Positions 181 to 10,125 of a DNA stretch of 63,250 bases are shown piece after piece. Location of the stretch: the NCBI GenBank assembly GCA_017466405.1, contig JAFTUF010000047.1, positions 1-63,250 on the forward strand, written 5' to 3'. The translations under genes were made by a program, and so were the position numbers. Position 1 is the stretch's first letter. Each line of letters begins with the position of its first letter. Under the pieces are notes generated by a model. That model was not told where the DNA came from. It ran no database searches and saw only the letters and a program-made list of their open reading frames with translations. The stretch comes from Bacteroidales bacterium. GTDB lineage: Bacteria; Bacteroidota; Bacteroidia; Bacteroidales; F082.

Positions 181-245
181 CCGAGTCGCTGAGACTCCGA
201 GTTGCTGAGTCTATAAGTCAGGTTCAGGGTTCAGAGTTCGGAGTC
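181..245. repeat. CCGAG/TGCTGAG/CTATAAGTC repeat, copy 1
   Basis: First of three copies (others at 1275-1354 and 5263-5339) of a degenerate element. Each consists of several CACCGAGA or TTGCTGAG units, then the invariant CTATAAGTC, then GGTTCAGGGTTCAG-like units. This copy overlaps the 3' end of the RhuM-family gene: the TAG stop lies inside CTATAAGTC, and the last ten or so residues are encoded by the repeat. Confidence 0.8.
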
Positions 246-1131
246 CTTTCAGCAAGACATCTACTGGTAAATTCAACTTTGAAAAGGCAAATAGTTTTTT
301 ACCTAAATCCTTAAGCGATGCTCCTATATGAAAAACATCTTCATTATCAATTATAACAAATCTATCGTGTATATCTTTGACTGTTTGTATTTCAATTGCT
401 GAATATTGTTTATTATGTCGTTCTAAATCTAACTTTAATTGATTGCTAATTTTATCAGTATATATTGTTGCCATAACACCATCCTTTCTTTTATCAAGCA
501 TAGTCAATACAGATTCGTCAATATAATTATCAATAACAATTATTGATTCATTTGCTATTTTTATCAAATTCGAGACAAACTTGTAGGCTTCAAATATTTC
601 ACCTCCATAAAAAACACCTTGAACTGGCGGCATTGACTTCTGAACAAAATAATTTATCTGTTCACTTATCTCTTTCAATTGAACATCATGATTATATAGT
701 TTATTATCAAATTTATTTTCTATATAATCAATCCTTTGATTTATGGAATATCCTTTAAGCAAATTATTTTTAAGTATGTTATTTGCCCATTGTCGGAAAT
801 GAATTCCAATCTTTGTATTGACCCTAAATCCAACAGAAATTATAACATCAAGATTATAATATGTAATATTTCTGAGCACTTCCCTATTCCCTTCAATTCG
901 AACTGTTCGGAAATTCCGAATAGTTGAATCCTTGTCCAGTTCATTCTGATGATAAATACTCTTAATATGTTCACTAATATTTGCTTTGCTTGATTGAAAC
1001 AACTGAACAATCTGACTCTGGGAAAGCCATACCATATCCTCATTCAAAACGACTTCAATCTTAACATCATCATTAGCTTGATATATTACAAGTTCGCCTT
1101 GGAAACTTGTATTCTGTTTTGTACTATTCAT
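211..1131 (-). CDS. RhuM-family protein with C-terminal phospholipase-D-like domain
   Basis: 306 residues. The N-terminal ~160 residues match the RhuM family (named from a Salmonella pathogenicity island): a helix-turn-helix-like region with VWLSQSQIVQLFQ and HIKSIY, then STIRNF and YYNLDVIISVGFRVN. Residues ~175-290 form a second domain seen in Bacteroidota ORF6N/RhuM-type proteins: an FYGGEIFEAY entry, then IVIDNYID and HDRFVIID, which resembles a PLD-like fold with an HxRF rather than a full HKD motif. These proteins are commonly found on islands; their biochemical role is uncertain, though DNA binding is plausible for the N-terminus. The start ATG is 23 nt downstream of a good -7 box. The final residues (roughly LRTLNPEPDL) are encoded by an intergenic repeat, so the native C-terminus seems to have been replaced or slightly truncated. 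Confidence 0.8.
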   Translation of the reverse strand: MNSTKQNTSFQGELVIYQANDDVKIEVVLNEDMVWLSQSQIVQLFQSSKANISEHIKSIYHQNELDKDSTIRNFRTVRIEGNREVLRNITYYNLDVIISVGFRVNTKIGIHFRQWANNILKNNLLKGYSINQRIDYIENKFDNKLYNHDVQLKEISEQINYFVQKSMPPVQGVFYGGEIFEAYKFVSNLIKIANESIIVIDNYIDESVLTMLDKRKDGVMATIYTDKISNQLKLDLERHNKQYSAIEIQTVKDIHDRFVIIDNEDVFHIGASLKDLGKKLFAFSKLNLPVDVLLKGLRTLNPEPDL

Positions 1132-2689: not shown

Positions 2690-4627
2690 TTAATCTATAA
2701 CTGGACGCACACTTCGACCGCGGTTACGGCAGTCGTAGCCCATGGAGTGATCGACACTAGAGGAGTAGAGGCCGTACGCGTCGTCGTCGTACTCGCTAGG
2801 CGTAGAACTCCAATAGGGACCGAAGCTTCCAGCGCTGAGGAGCAATGACCCGTCGCGACAACCCGCAGCAGGAAGGAAGATGCTGTTACCATTAGGGCCT
2901 TCTACATTATAGCCCTTAACGCCGTTCTGGGTTGTCCATGTCCATGTGCAGTTTGTAAGTAATTCGTTCAACTCATCGTATGTCGGCATTCTCCATGTAC
3001 CGCCCCAATTGGCTGTGGCTGCATCATATTGTGGGTTACCAGAGATATCATTCAAAGATTTACCATAAGTAAGGCTATTTGCTTGTGTATATTCAGATTT
3101 TGTCTCTGTCTCGCCCCATGCAAAATAATCACCATATTCTTCTGGAGAATTCGCCCCAACATTACATGTTGCCCATTTAACACTTAATCCTAAGTCAACA
3201 TATTCATGTCCGTTGTAGTTTGGGGTTTCAGGTTCTTCTGGTTGCTCTTCTGGTCCTGTAAAATTGCCGCCTGATACCGGGCGAATTGTAATACCATCAT
3301 AACGCATACTAAGTCCTATGGCATAATGAACATTGTAATGGCATATTAATTTTTCAGAAGCATTACTATTACCATCGCAAGGAGTAGAAATCCAACTATA
3401 AGTACTGTAGCCACAGTTGCTAAATGATTCTCCCCAACATTCACCCGAAGCAGGAAGGAATATACTGTTACCGTTTGGTCCTGTTACATTTTGGCCATAA
3501 ACTCCGTTCTCTACAGTCCATTCAAATGTACACTTTTCTAGCAACTCTTGCATTTCTGCTTTAGTCGGCATTCTCCAGCCTTCTCCCCAGTTAGCTGTTG
3601 CTGCATCATATTGTGGGTTACCAGAGATATCATTCAAAGATTTACCATAAGTAAGGCTATTTGCTTGTGTATATTCAGATTTTGTCTCTGTCTCTCCCCA
3701 TGCGAAATAATCTCCATATTCTTCTGGAGAATTTGCGCCAACATTACATGTCGCCCACAACAAACCGCTTGGCAAACCTAAGTCAACGTATTCATGGCCA
3801 TTAATTGTATTGGTTTCTTCTTCATAGTCTTCCCATGTAAGTGTATATATGCTGCCTGCTTTTATCCCATTCAAGAATGTAACCTTCTTGCTCAAGTTGC
3901 TTTTCAATTCAACATTAGTTTCTTCATTTGGGAATAAAACAACGTATGATTCATTTGTAGGATTTGTTACATTTATACTTTCTTCGCCTGTAATGGCAAT
4001 ATCATATTTATCTCCGTCATATTCTAAACTATATTCTGTACCAATGATAGCATTGCCTCTTAATATACTTGTGCTTGCGCTTTCCTCGCCCAATTTTATT
4101 ATTGCAATCTGGTTCTTGAAGGTACCAATAGATAAAACAATACCACCGTTATTACCTTCACTTGCCGTTACTGTTGCCTTAGCTATATGATGATAACCTA
4201 AGTCTGATAAATTACCACTTTGAGTTGCAATACTACCTGTAATACTGCCGTCAACTAACTTTGAATATTGTGAACGTCCTAAATACCATACGTCGTAGGA
4301 AGTTTCTCCAGTTATATCCAACGAACCAGCAGTTACATTACCACTGAAAGTTAAAGTGCTTCCACCAGCAGCAGTTTCGGATATTAACTCTACTAACTCT
4401 TGAATTGCAGGTATAGCAAGATAAATTCTTTCTGTTTCTGCGCTCCAGTTCACAGTGCCGTTTTCTAAAATATTTGTGAAGTCGGTCTTGCCGTCATTGT
4501 TGAGAGGAATGGTACAGCTTATCCTTACCTTTGCTGTGTTGTCTTCGGTTTCTTCGTTTTGTTTTTTACATTGGCTTAATGTGACAATCATAGCCAATGC
4601 CATCATTATTGCAAGTAGTTTTTTCAT
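2690..4627 (-). CDS. Lipoprotein with two FISUMP (C-type-lectin-like) domains; probable DGR target
   Basis: 645 residues with a lipoprotein signal peptide (hydrophobic core, then LSQC at about residue 20), so predicted to be anchored at the cell surface or periplasm. Residues ~25-270 form an unrecognised beta-rich region resembling fimbrillin-like adhesin domains. Two FISUMP-type domains follow (~275-450 and ~470-645), each opening NGHEYVDLGL, containing WATCNVGA, DYFAWGET, WRMPT and FLPA, and closing IRPV or VRPV. The two copies share a 95-bp identical stretch. The C-terminal ~57 codons differ sharply from the rest: about 60% GC and dominated by NNC codons, as expected of a DGR variable region. 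The start ATG overlaps the TAA of the small upstream gene (TAATG), suggesting translational coupling. No reverse transcriptase or template repeat is in the window. Confidence 0.8.
   Translation of the reverse strand: MKKLLAIMMALAMIVTLSQCKKQNEETEDNTAKVRISCTIPLNNDGKTDFTNILENGTVNWSAETERIYLAIPAIQELVELISETAAGGSTLTFSGNVTAGSLDITGETSYDVWYLGRSQYSKLVDGSITGSIATQSGNLSDLGYHHIAKATVTASEGNNGGIVLSIGTFKNQIAIIKLGEESASTSILRGNAIIGTEYSLEYDGDKYDIAITGEESINVTNPTNESYVVLFPNEETNVELKSNLSKKVTFLNGIKAGSIYTLTWEDYEEETNTINGHEYVDLGLPSGLLWATCNVGANSPEEYGDYFAWGETETKSEYTQANSLTYGKSLNDISGNPQYDAATANWGEGWRMPTKAEMQELLEKCTFEWTVENGVYGQNVTGPNGNSIFLPASGECWGESFSNCGYSTYSWISTPCDGNSNASEKLICHYNVHYAIGLSMRYDGITIRPVSGGNFTGPEEQPEEPETPNYNGHEYVDLGLSVKWATCNVGANSPEEYGDYFAWGETETKSEYTQANSLTYGKSLNDISGNPQYDAATANWGGTWRMPTYDELNELLTNCTWTWTTQNGVKGYNVEGPNGNSIFLPAAGCRDGSLLLSAGSFGPYWSSTPSEYDDDAYGLYSSSVDHSMGYDCRNRGRSVRPVID
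2699..2866 (-). other. Candidate DGR variable region (VR) at the lipoprotein 3' end
   Basis: The 180 bp from 2701 to 2880 contain 108 G+C (60%), against about 45% in the 120 bp just upstream in the gene. Of the last 59 codons, 27 end in C; they include runs such as TAC GAC GAC GAC and TAC GGC CTC TAC. These are the products expected when AAC codons of a template repeat are mutated at adenines during DGR mutagenic homing. Flanking fixed residues (YWSSTP, then RSVRPV) are the conserved frame of FISUMP variable domains. The first FISUMP domain of the same protein shows no such codon pattern. The VR call is an inference from composition and codon pattern. Confidence 0.65.
3018..3112 (-). repeat. 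95-bp identical internal duplication in the lipoprotein gene
   Basis: 3018-3112 is identical to 3600-3694 (offset 582 bp). It encodes the middle part of both FISUMP domains (from the FAWGETE region through the YTQANSLTYGKS segment to the AATA segment). Sequence outside this stretch is clearly more diverged, which suggests a recent duplication or gene conversion. Confidence 0.85.
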
Positions 4628-5520: not shown

Positions 5521-8025
5521 TCAATTATTATAATGGTGTACATCAAACTTTATGTTCTTCTTGTTTTTATCTTCCGGTTCGAACACTATAGTTTGTGTTG
5601 TATTTGGAAGCAAGTTAAAGAAATTCTGAGAGAAATCACCTAAAACTGAAGCTGTCACACATACGTCTTTAACGAAAACATCAGAATTGAATGTAAGATG
5701 ATATTTGCCATCATTAAAGACAATCTCTGGATTGAGTTCTGTCTCAATAAGCTGCATATCTTTTGGATATGTGAAGAAATGTAAACGCTCGCTCAAGATA
5801 GTATCGTCTTCCATAAATATGATACGAGCGTAACATTCGGTATTCTTCTTTCCAAACAAACTGATAGCAACATCTTTAGGGAAATAATAGCAGCTGTTTG
5901 CCTTTACGTTCACGCCTTCCGAGAAAGCGAACAATTGTTTTCCGTACATATCTTCAACGATGATACGCACTCTTCCGTCGATGTCGTGTTGTAAATCGTT
6001 GCTAATCCATAATTTGTAATTATCTTCACCTTGATGTTTGAGACCTAATAAGATAGGATTGTAAATCTCATCTAATTTATAATGAAGAGCTTTCTTATTA
6101 CCTAAATAATCTATTGAAGACCATGATATTGAAGTCCATGCGTCGTTGAGCTGCCAGTAGAGAGAGCCCATACTGCGAGGACGAGAACTGCGTTGTGCAG
6201 AAATTGCTATATCCATGCCGTAAGCTTGTGAGAGCTGACTTAAATATACGTAATCTTCAAAGTCTTTTGGCTCGCCGAAGTATTTTACTACGTGATCCAT
6301 AATGAGTTTCTCGCCTCTGTTATGTTTCTGGTGTGCTTGTATAATCTCGTTGCCGAAGTCTGGATTTTTGTCAATCATTCTTAAAGTCTGCATCGAAGGA
6401 TATGACTGATAGCCGAATTCGCTGTTGAAACGACCGACTTTCTCTTTATACATCTCGTAAGGAAGTTCTCCCCACCATACGCCCCAATAGTGGACGTCGC
6501 CTTCTGTGAGACTTGCAGCTCTACCCCATCCGTTCTTAGGAGAACTCGGCCAATAAGGTCTCGATTTATCATAGGTTGAAACAACATCAGCCAACATCTC
6601 TTCAAAGAGTTTGTCGTAGCCGTCTTTCATTTCCTTATATTCTTCATCGCTCCAGTTCATCGACTTCTGCCAGCCCCAGTTGTAATAGCCCTCACTGATT
6701 TCGTTATTGCCGCACCACAATGCGAGTGACGGGTGGTTTTTAAGTCTTATAACCTGTTTCTTAGCCTCTTCTCTCACGTTATTAATGAACTCGTCTGTGT
6801 AAGGATAAGTAGATCCGGCAAACATGAAATCCTGCCAAACTAAGATGCCGAGGCTGTCGCAAATTTCGAAGAAATAGTCGGGAGGATAGATGCCTCCGCC
6901 CCAGATACGAAGCATATTCATATGAGCATCGCCAACACATTGTTCAAGAAGTTTTTGAGTCTTCTCTCTTGACATCCATGATGTTATCATTTCTTCAGGG
7001 ATATAGTTGGCACCCTTCATATATAAAGGTATTCCGTTCACTTTGAAATAGAATGCAGTACCTATGCTATCAGGTTCTTCTATCATCTCAATCTCACGGA
7101 TACCCATTGTGATGTCTCTTTCTTCGAGAATGTTTTCTTCGTCTAACATCTTGAAATTGAATGTGTACATATTTTGTTCACCCAACTCATTAGGCCACCA
7201 CAACTTAGGATTTGAAATTTCAAATGGGAATGAATGATAGTTTTTACCTTCTTCGAGTTCTATGGTCTCATCAAGGATTTTGGAATTTTTCTCAAAAAGT
7301 TGGAGAGTTATTTCATGTTTCACATCAGCATCGACACATACTTCAAATGCCAACTGAGCTTTATTATCTTGAATGTCAGTTGTTATGACAGATGCTGAAG
7401 ACAATGTAGAATGAGTCCAAGCTTTGAGATAAACAGGTTGCCAGATACCCATGTTCATATAACGTGGAGCCCAGTCCCAGCCGTTTTGGTAAGCGGCCTT
7501 ACGCATCACGGCGTATTTCTCAGGGAAGCGGAGCGGATATGTCTCGATAAGGCTATCTCTCACTCTATCAAAAGGATGGAATTTAATCTTGATGTTGTTT
7601 TTTTCTTTGATAAGATTTTTGACGTCGCATGAATAAGTTCTGAACATATTGTCGGAATACAAGATATGTTCGCCGTTGAACCACACGTCAGCGTAAGTGT
7701 CGATACCTTCAAATACAAGTTCGATAACATCTTCTTTGAGGATATAATCTTCAGCATTGAAATCGAGGGTGTAAGTCCATTCGTGCTGAGGAATCCAATG
7801 CAGCTGAGGCTCAATATTACTTTTGTATGGATGAGGTATCAAACCATTCTCATACATATCGGCTTGGATTATGGAAGGAACATCGACTTGCATCTTGATG
7901 TCGAGAGTATCGGTAGTAACAATCCATGAGTTGTCTAAGTTTTGAATAAGAGGGTTCGTACGTTTTTCCGCACACGAAAACAGCAACAACATCGCTGCAA
8001 CCACAACTAAAATACGAGTTTTCAT
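5521..8025 (-). CDS. Exported GH2 beta-mannosidase (lipoprotein)
   Basis: 834 residues. The N-terminus MKTRILVVVAAMLLLFSC is a lipoprotein signal peptide, so the enzyme is probably anchored in an outer compartment. Order: jelly-roll sugar-binding domain (~40-210, with LHWIPQHEWTYTLDF and WDWAPRYMNMGIWQPVYL), Ig-like domain, TIM barrel from ~330 (MLRIWGGGIYPPDYFFEICD), and C-terminal beta domains. The acid/base Glu is in WCGNNEISEG (near residue 443) and the nucleophile Glu in FNSEFGYQS (near 533). These motifs and the WQDFMFA segment are typical of beta-mannosidases rather than beta-galactosidases. The expected reaction is removal of terminal beta-mannose, for example from the N-glycan core or mannooligosaccharides. 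It is codirectional with cutC upstream. Its TGA stop sits in the first bases of an AATTGAAAGTTGAAA repeat. Confidence 0.9.
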   Translation of the reverse strand: MKTRILVVVAAMLLLFSCAEKRTNPLIQNLDNSWIVTTDTLDIKMQVDVPSIIQADMYENGLIPHPYKSNIEPQLHWIPQHEWTYTLDFNAEDYILKEDVIELVFEGIDTYADVWFNGEHILYSDNMFRTYSCDVKNLIKEKNNIKIKFHPFDRVRDSLIETYPLRFPEKYAVMRKAAYQNGWDWAPRYMNMGIWQPVYLKAWTHSTLSSASVITTDIQDNKAQLAFEVCVDADVKHEITLQLFEKNSKILDETIELEEGKNYHSFPFEISNPKLWWPNELGEQNMYTFNFKMLDEENILEERDITMGIREIEMIEEPDSIGTAFYFKVNGIPLYMKGANYIPEEMITSWMSREKTQKLLEQCVGDAHMNMLRIWGGGIYPPDYFFEICDSLGILVWQDFMFAGSTYPYTDEFINNVREEAKKQVIRLKNHPSLALWCGNNEISEGYYNWGWQKSMNWSDEEYKEMKDGYDKLFEEMLADVVSTYDKSRPYWPSSPKNGWGRAASLTEGDVHYWGVWWGELPYEMYKEKVGRFNSEFGYQSYPSMQTLRMIDKNPDFGNEIIQAHQKHNRGEKLIMDHVVKYFGEPKDFEDYVYLSQLSQAYGMDIAISAQRSSRPRSMGSLYWQLNDAWTSISWSSIDYLGNKKALHYKLDEIYNPILLGLKHQGEDNYKLWISNDLQHDIDGRVRIIVEDMYGKQLFAFSEGVNVKANSCYYFPKDVAISLFGKKNTECYARIIFMEDDTILSERLHFFTYPKDMQLIETELNPEIVFNDGKYHLTFNSDVFVKDVCVTASVLGDFSQNFFNLLPNTTQTIVFEPEDKNKKNIKFDVHHYNN

Positions 8026-9285: not shown

Positions 9286-10125
9286 ATGAAGACAAAATTA
9301 ACGAGGAAGGCGGTTTCCTCATTTGAAAGCATTAAAAGAATCGATGATGATGGTGTTGAATATTGGTCATCGAGGGATTTAGCAAGAACTTTAGAATACA
9401 AGGATTATCGTAATTTCTTGTTGGTAATAAATAAAGCTATGGAATCTTGCCATAATAGCGCAGTTATGGTAAAAGACCATTTCGTTGACATCACCGAAAT
9501 GGTTGCCATCGGATCCAATACTGAACGTCAAGTAAAATCAATTAAATTATCACGTTATGCATGCTATCTTACAGTACAAAATGCAGATCCGAGTAAGACG
9601 ATAGTGGCTCAGGCTCAGACCTATTTTGCCATTCAGACAAGAATAGCAGAAGTCAAACAAATGGAAGAATATAACCAACTTGCTTCCGAAGATGAAAAGC
9701 GACTGTTTCTAAGAAACGAAGTGACTAAACACAATTTATTACTTGCTGATGCAGCTAAAGAAGCGGGCGTTATAAAACCATACGATTATGCTGTGTTTCA
9801 AAACTATGGATATAAAGGATTATACGGTGGTCTCGGCGCAAAGGAAATACATTCTCGAAAGAGATTAAAGAAAAATCAGAAGATTCTTGATCACATGGGA
9901 AGCACAGAACTGGCAGCAAATCTCTTTCGCACGACTCAGACAGAAGAGAAATTAAGACGCGAGAATATAAAAGGTAAGACTATAGCTAATCAAACACATT
10001 ACGATGTGGGTAAAAAAGTCCGGCAGACAATTAAAGATTTGGGAGGAACTATGCCTGAAGATTTACCAACAGCGGAAAGCATAAAAAATATCGAAATGAA
10101 ACAGCAAAAGGATATTAACACTTGA
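9286..10125 (+). CDS. dinD: DinD-like DNA-damage-inducible BRO-domain protein
   Basis: 279 residues. The N-terminal BRO/DinD region has FESIKRIDDDGVEYWSSRDLARTLEY and NFLLVINKA; the middle holds VKSIKLSRYACYLTVQNADPSK and VAQAQTYFAIQTR; the C-terminal part has HNLLLADAAKEAGV and AANLFRTTQTEEKLRRE. This is the DinD family order and usual length. In E. coli DinD is SOS-induced and inhibits RecA filament activity; in other bacteria it travels with mobile or defence genes. It has its own promoter cassette. The TGA stop overlaps the -33 TTGAC of the next cassette, so dinD and the following gene are a compact pair with duplicated control regions. Confidence 0.9.
   Translation: MKTKLTRKAVSSFESIKRIDDDGVEYWSSRDLARTLEYKDYRNFLLVINKAMESCHNSAVMVKDHFVDITEMVAIGSNTERQVKSIKLSRYACYLTVQNADPSKTIVAQAQTYFAIQTRIAEVKQMEEYNQLASEDEKRLFLRNEVTKHNLLLADAAKEAGVIKPYDYAVFQNYGYKGLYGGLGAKEIHSRKRLKKNQKILDHMGSTELAANLFRTTQTEEKLRRENIKGKTIANQTHYDVGKKVRQTIKDLGGTMPEDLPTAESIKNIEMKQQKDINT

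Follow-up and report, generated by a model that had tools for sequence, protein, structure and literature searches.

The stretch of DNA analysed here (the window, 63,250 nucleotides) is contig C43 of a 2.43-Mb draft assembly that comprises 69 contigs and has an estimated completeness of 95%. Near one end of the window, the reverse strand encodes a RhuM-family protein, a PD-(D/E)XK nuclease-family protein, and a lipoprotein (Table 1). The lipoprotein is composed of a signal peptide with its cysteine (judged by eye to be a lipoprotein signal), an N-terminal domain, and two Lcl_C-type domains. The end of the second Lcl_C-type domain is a variable repeat (VR) of the kind written by diversity-generating retroelements (DGRs), and hence the VR is located within a target domain predicted to be C-type-lectin-like.

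Lcl_C, which we take to be the former DUF1566, is the only family that Pfam gives at an E-value of 0.001. The preliminary description of this DNA had called the domains FISUMP (Fib_succ_major). This name found no confirmation, as there is no match to the curated Fib_succ_major model and the second domain has no match to any NCBIfam family at E-values up to 1. DUF1566 and Fib_succ_major are described as resembling each other in sequence (PMC4159848). Taken on its own, the first Lcl_C-type domain scores 25.1 bits and stays below the cut-off of 34.9. A domain-profile search of PDB sequences matched none of 177,635 distinct sequences, and Foldseek returned nothing at an E-value of 0.001 or better from a list that lacks the DGR variable proteins TvpA and Mtd, so that this outcome excludes nothing.

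The gene directly upstream of the lipoprotein gene encodes a small, secreted-looking protein. Its counterpart, with 44% amino acid identity over 79 codons, precedes the lipoprotein of a syntenic locus, L151 (JAFYUH010000163.1, MAG RGIG7428, from water buffalo colon), in which a stretch of genome G029 occurs. Secreted-looking small proteins precede three related lipoproteins, namely that of the window and those of L151 (small protein at 5669-5992) and L081 (2453-2938). By eye, all three small proteins end in a glycine motif, a hydrophobic stretch and basic residues, resembling a sorting signal; the window and L081 proteins have no NCBIfam match.

Table 1. Positions of the features in the window; matches are given with their E-values
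Feature	Position	Strand	Evidence and remarks
RhuM-family protein	211..1131	-	Pfam, 1.2e-20; PADLOC PDC-S05, 7.9e-118
Block nearly identical to L151	1415..2709	-	Upper edge at the 3' end of the VR
PD-(D/E)XK nuclease-family protein, 409 aa	1434..2663	-	Pfam PDDEXK_4, 4.5e-8; PADLOC PDC-S26, 6.7e-17
Lipoprotein, 645 aa	2690..4627	-	ORF; Pfam Lcl_C, 9.4e-14, two stretches
Second Lcl_C-type domain	2699..3214	-	C-type-lectin-like fold predicted; the VR is its C-terminal third
VR, ~52 codons, about codons 590-641	2705..2860	-	Borders good to a few codons
First Lcl_C-type domain	3286..3805 (approximate borders)	-	Second Lcl_C stretch; AT-rich ordinary tail, not a VR
Small secreted-looking protein, 107 aa	4627..4950	-	ORF; directly upstream of the lipoprotein
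Protein matching a PADLOC candidate family	9286..10125		PDC-S13, 1.1e-113
Single ORF of 7,649 codons	30593..53542	-	Start resembles a signal peptide; searched as two pieces: Pfam beta-helix, 7e-39 and 1.7e-12, and CARDB, 4.4e-43

The lipoprotein tail is a DGR variable repeat

A DGR reverse transcribes an RNA template with random bases placed opposite adenines, and the resulting cDNA replaces the end of a target gene. The composition of the lipoprotein tail had led the preliminary description to propose a variable region of this type, and the values on which it relied hold. The GC content is 0.602 over 2699-2869 and 0.579 in the last 57 codons, compared with 0.407 in the whole gene, and C is the third base in 27 of the last 59 codons. 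A GC content of at least 0.602 is reached by just 10 of the 63,079 segments of 171 nt in the window, every one at 2699-2885. The number of C-ending codons is by itself unremarkable: of the 17,341 segments of 59 codons, taken from 21 ORFs, 429 that lie outside the lipoprotein gene have at least 27, and the ten listed of these are all in one giant ORF. As had been claimed, the pattern is missing from the other Lcl_C-type domain of the lipoprotein, whose tail has a GC of 0.39, a C3 of 0.15, and no adenine bias. The pattern begins near codons 589-592 and ends near codon 640. Between codons 592 and 639, the third-position identity to five other VRs ranges from 0.58 to 1.00, with 18 of the 20 block values being at least 0.80; upstream (codons 472-579), the identity to the same five is 0.17-0.83.

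Three tests address the origin of the tail, of which only the first requires a template. We compared the VR with four real templates (TRs), two from genome G022, one from G011, and one from locus L219. It differs from them at 60-63% of template adenines and at 19-27% of other bases, with odds ratios of 4.1-6.5 and p-values between 5.5e-8 and 2.6e-5. As controls we took five ordinary Lcl_C tails, whose 20 comparisons gave odds ratios of 0.9-2.1; the lowest p-value, 0.017, came from the ordinary L151 tail against one template (odds ratio 2.1). The second test concerns codon positions. Compared with seven VRs of the same type (six from G028 and one from G033), third positions differ in 8-11 of 58-60 codons inside the VR but in 37-51 of 90-101 upstream of it, and the first and second positions within the VR together differ 30-44 times, which is the reverse of ordinary divergence. 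Five tails from the same assembly have 18-30 third-position differences to the window tail. The third test concerns nine domains of the window type, in which adenine occupies 4 of 85 invariant VR columns versus 46 of 154 upstream (p = 1.7e-6), and third positions are less represented among the variable columns of the VR (p = 4e-5).

The substitutions are concentrated at template adenines and at the first two positions of NNC codons, also when the five ordinary-tail controls are considered. As adenine bias, inverted codon-position divergence, and adenine-depleted invariant columns agree, the last ~52 codons of the lipoprotein are a DGR variable repeat, and the preliminary reading of the tail stands.

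Templates and reverse transcriptases in the assembly and the genus

A profile search of the assembly for RVT_1 gave a single match (69 bits), located on contig C59, and none in the window. Besides a reverse transcriptase (RT), C59 carries the gene of a bAvd protein, an ORF whose MutS_I match stays under the cut-off, and the gene of a protein containing three stretches of Lcl_C. The RT matches the PHROG family 'Reverse transcriptase' (1.1e-92), and its best NCBIfam match is a group II intron RT, far under the cut-off. Its neighbour matches the PHROG family 'Avd protein of DGR' (2.3e-21) and Pfam bAvd above cut-off, and scores 56.5 bits with the NCBIfam Avd model, under the cut-off of 80. The RT has the motif IGNLSSQ, which we take to be a mark of DGR-type RTs; based on this motif, Avd, and the TR-VR pairs, the genome contains an RT of DGR type. 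The 5' end of the RT ORF contains, in frame, the AAC-rich C59 template of about 115 nt. Relative to this template, two cis VRs are changed at 12/37 and 13/37 adenines, and at 0/77 and 1/78 other positions; in a codon alignment, the numbers are 13/38 and 13/38 for adenines, and 3/79 and 1/79 for the others. Thus the C59 element is an ordinary DGR, in which Avd, RT, and TR are accompanied by two cis VRs. Earlier work describes templates that overlap the RT ORF at its end, single DGRs with several VRs, and a target located more than 370 kb away (PMC3521204). Four related DGRs (L011 12809-14203, L096, L097, and L098) also have the TR in frame within the RT ORF, where it comes after a similar N-terminal segment beginning with MVNK.

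The C59 TR lacks a 5' part that is present in the TR of a relative, G022:C58, whose RT is 93% identical. The VR C59b does extend over this part, and its codons there depart from the G022 TR at adenines. A remote tail on contig C7 of the same assembly differs from the G022:C58 TR at 13 adenines and no other base over its best 60 nt, and at 12 of 126 non-adenine positions over the full length. Judging from these alignments, VRs in this assembly seem to persist longer than the template version from which they arose.

The window VR differs from the C59 TR at 21/36 adenines and 18/74 other positions in an alignment that needs gaps, and at 22/37 adenines and 25/77 other positions in a codon alignment (p = 0.006); it also reaches further 5' than this TR. 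The cis VRs have nearly no such non-adenine mismatches, and the C59 TR is rejected as the source. The preliminary description had placed the RT and template of a remote target outside the window. A DGR-type RT and a template are indeed found there, on C59, but the view that this template made the VR is not supported. The closest TRs found are two of G022, two of G011, and that of L219, and they are likewise ruled out as the exact source; the best, G022:C31, differs at 22/118 or 23/118 non-adenine positions. Among the loci scanned in pieces of 72 nt, the best fits are the 5' half of the G011:C65 TR (5 non-adenine and 10 adenine differences) and the 3' half of the G022:C31 TR (7 and 19). More distant TRs (G021, G023, G084, G094, and others) were compared through this 72-nt scan only. 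For every template tested, non-adenine positions account for at least 39% of the differences. A published rule for secondary targets allows 25% (PMC8144416), and by this measure none of the templates tested qualifies as a true TR partner of the window tail; no TR was found that differs from it nearly only at adenines.

Searching the assembly DNA with the window VR gave nine places, and all 13 candidates scored included no second TR. Apart from the query itself there were eight places, among them the first Lcl_C-type domain of the lipoprotein and two sites on C59. The C59 TR found four places (the fourth being merely a 15-nt match, E-value 0.96), again with no second TR among all 10 candidates scored, and the G022 TR gave none among the best 8 of 19 candidates. 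These searches of the assembly, and those of the genus, thus did not find the near-copy differing at adenines for which the preliminary description had suggested searching the genome.

VRs of the window type, as typed by eye, are present in five species-level genomes, G000, G028, G033, G035, and G016, the last being more diverged. None of the matching places examined in the five showed an AAC-rich copy of the window type. RVT_1 matches number one each in G000 and G028, and zero in G033, G035, and G016; three of the five genomes are 79-84% complete, and G028 is listed as 100% complete. With a G028 VR of the window type as query, 10 of 173 family genomes gave a match at an E-value of 1e-6 or lower, at most four candidates being scored in each; across the genus and family searches for templates, scoring covered the best 8 or 4 of a genome's candidates. 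In G028, none of the eight matches to an Lcl_C-type TR is AAC-rich, and the RT adjoins a template of another, FGE-sulfatase-like type. Its locus L081 (3103-5358, G028:C6) encodes a 751-aa lipoprotein that combines an FGE-sulfatase domain with an Lcl_C VR of the window type; after it come an HRDC gene, the RT, and the FGE-type template. This second DGR type, whose FGE-like templates (NRVNRGGSWNNNARNCRVSNR...) lie close to RT frames that are shorter (328-362 aa), occurs in the genus at loci of G002, G008, G022, G028, G041, and G076. Searched with one query each, viral_contigs yielded nothing related to the C59 RT, plasmids nothing matching a G022 TR, and phages nothing matching a G028 VR.

A recurring box, AAGCGAAGCG, often followed by nATTCAATTTATTT, stands just after the VR stop codon in L012, L014, L011, and other loci. 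The box AAGCGAAGCG follows 26 of 65 terminal Lcl_C tails and is absent after the window VR. Its absence proves little, because the tie between box and NNC-rich tails is not significant (p = 0.07 and 0.30 at two thresholds) and the internal cis VR C59a is likewise not followed by it. At L011 and L012 (own genome), a 9-10 bp inverted repeat whose loop is TTTAAGA comes after the box; the DNA hairpins predicted in three cases are weak (z = -1.72, -0.07, and -0.83). The idea of AAGCGAAGCG as a homing signal is modelled on the hairpin of BPP-1 (PMC3240598). With no significant tie and weak hairpins, it remains a lead by analogy only.

The syntenic locus and the origin of the tail

The gene order of L151 is GH2 enzyme, two short Lcl_C-type genes, small protein, 758-aa lipoprotein, PD-(D/E)XK gene, and LepA. 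Between the window and L151, the GH2 enzymes are 76% identical (dS 1.8) and the lipoproteins 59% (dS 1.4), and the PD-(D/E)XK proteins have 96% amino acid and 98% DNA identity (dS 0.05). Matches per 50 columns are 44-50 at 2664-1415, 39 with 10 gap columns at 2704-2665, and 21-35 at 2904-2705. Since the PD-(D/E)XK gene is 98% identical across species and its flank is not, recombination has acted near the VR, and the block appears to be a recent transfer or conversion of a defence-candidate gene with its edge at the VR end. The L151 lipoprotein has an ordinary tail, with a GC of 0.40 and a C3 of 0.16 versus 0.58 and 0.44 for the window tail at equal length, and two orthologues cannot give the direction of this change. 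The lipoprotein is absent from the corresponding loci of G010, where LepA directly follows GH2, and of G028, which has GH2, two small genes, and LepA. The N-terminal domain is matched in 15 of 99 genus genomes at 1e-10; besides the window, the best is G029 (that is, L151) at 55%, and the rest are at most 49%. The preliminary description had suggested an island. Two neighbours matching phage-defence-candidate models and the recombination at PD-(D/E)XK fit this suggestion, but the lipoprotein itself has a syntenic orthologue.

The closest precedent is Treponema denticola, in which DGR targets lie far from the RT and one remote VR fits the template of another strain better; isolates lacking RT or TR hold VRs that are read as leftovers of lost DGRs (PMC4891356). 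The window VR resembles these remote or leftover VRs. The differences are that it belongs to another phylum, that no template mismatching almost only at adenines was found for it, and that an ordinary tail is known from the syntenic orthologue of its lipoprotein. DUF1566 and Fib_succ_major targets in the human microbiome are reported together with their DGR (PMC4159848), whereas for the window neither a matching template nor its RT was found. The DGR of C59 and its relatives in G022 and G011 have Lcl_C targets, a similar VR framework, an RT, and an AAC-rich TR, but many non-adenine positions set their template framework apart from the window VR. A literature search pairing 'fisump' with 'diversity-generating retroelement' gave no match, and we do not claim orphan VRs as unpublished: remote or orphan VRs (T. 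denticola) and Lcl_C/DUF1566 as a common DGR target domain are already known, and the less usual feature here is the ordinary tail of the syntenic orthologue.

We consider the window VR to be an orphan, probably frozen DGR target, whose DGR was lost or which was recombined in as a VR (probability roughly 0.65). The comparison covers one genome per species, and the frozen state is presumed. The tail, or its ancestor, was probably written by a DGR of another template type. An AAC-rich RNA template, of the type also behind the VRs in four further species-level genomes of this genus and not that of C59, would have been reverse transcribed with random bases opposite adenines. The cDNA would then have replaced the end of the Lcl_C (C-type-lectin-like) domain by mutagenic retrohoming. 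The VR may have been written directly onto the lipoprotein gene, or brought to it by recombination from another VR gene, and the cognate template, presumably together with its RT, would no longer be present.

The second of these routes, in which ordinary recombination with another VR gene, within the cell or by transfer, moved the VR in, overlaps with the orphan reading and is a possible but less favoured account. The recombination edge at the VR 3' end and the homologous VR tails common in some genus genomes are consistent with it, but no identical donor tail was found, and none of the five VR genes compared is closest to the window along the whole upstream stretch. It is rather unlikely that the tail is a live remote target of a second DGR, either missing from the draft or residing on an unbinned mobile element. 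The template could have been missed because the assembly is an incomplete draft of many contigs, which TR and VR repeats could themselves break, and the window VR type is without a visible template in all five genomes. Against this stand the complete-listed G028, with no such template at its eight matching places and one RT of the other type, and the empty results from viral_contigs, plasmids, and phages. A live remote target of the C59 DGR is very improbable: a shared protein domain, a complete-looking element, and a weak adenine bias are outweighed by too many non-adenine differences, a VR longer at the 5' side than the TR, and an alignment that needs gaps. A non-DGR origin, by which codon bias or ordinary gene transfer produced a GC-rich, NNC-biased tail, is hardly credible: other parts of the window also reach this number of C-ending codons, but the three tests, the first with its controls, and the C59 TR-VR pairs of similar framework speak against it.

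The codon-position and invariant-adenine tests suggest that VRs are recognisable without an RT or a template, and in some genomes, G028 being an example, VR-like tails outnumber the templates found. With the ordinary-tailed syntenic orthologue, it becomes possible to test directly whether a single gene gained or lost a DGR target. A more speculative scenario, to which we give little weight, is that a DGR, perhaps mobile, visited several species of one gut genus, overwrote lectin-like tails in trans, and then left. If this is true, VR scars would persist in several species of the genus after their templates have disappeared, among them that of the window lipoprotein, whose orthologue keeps the ordinary tail.
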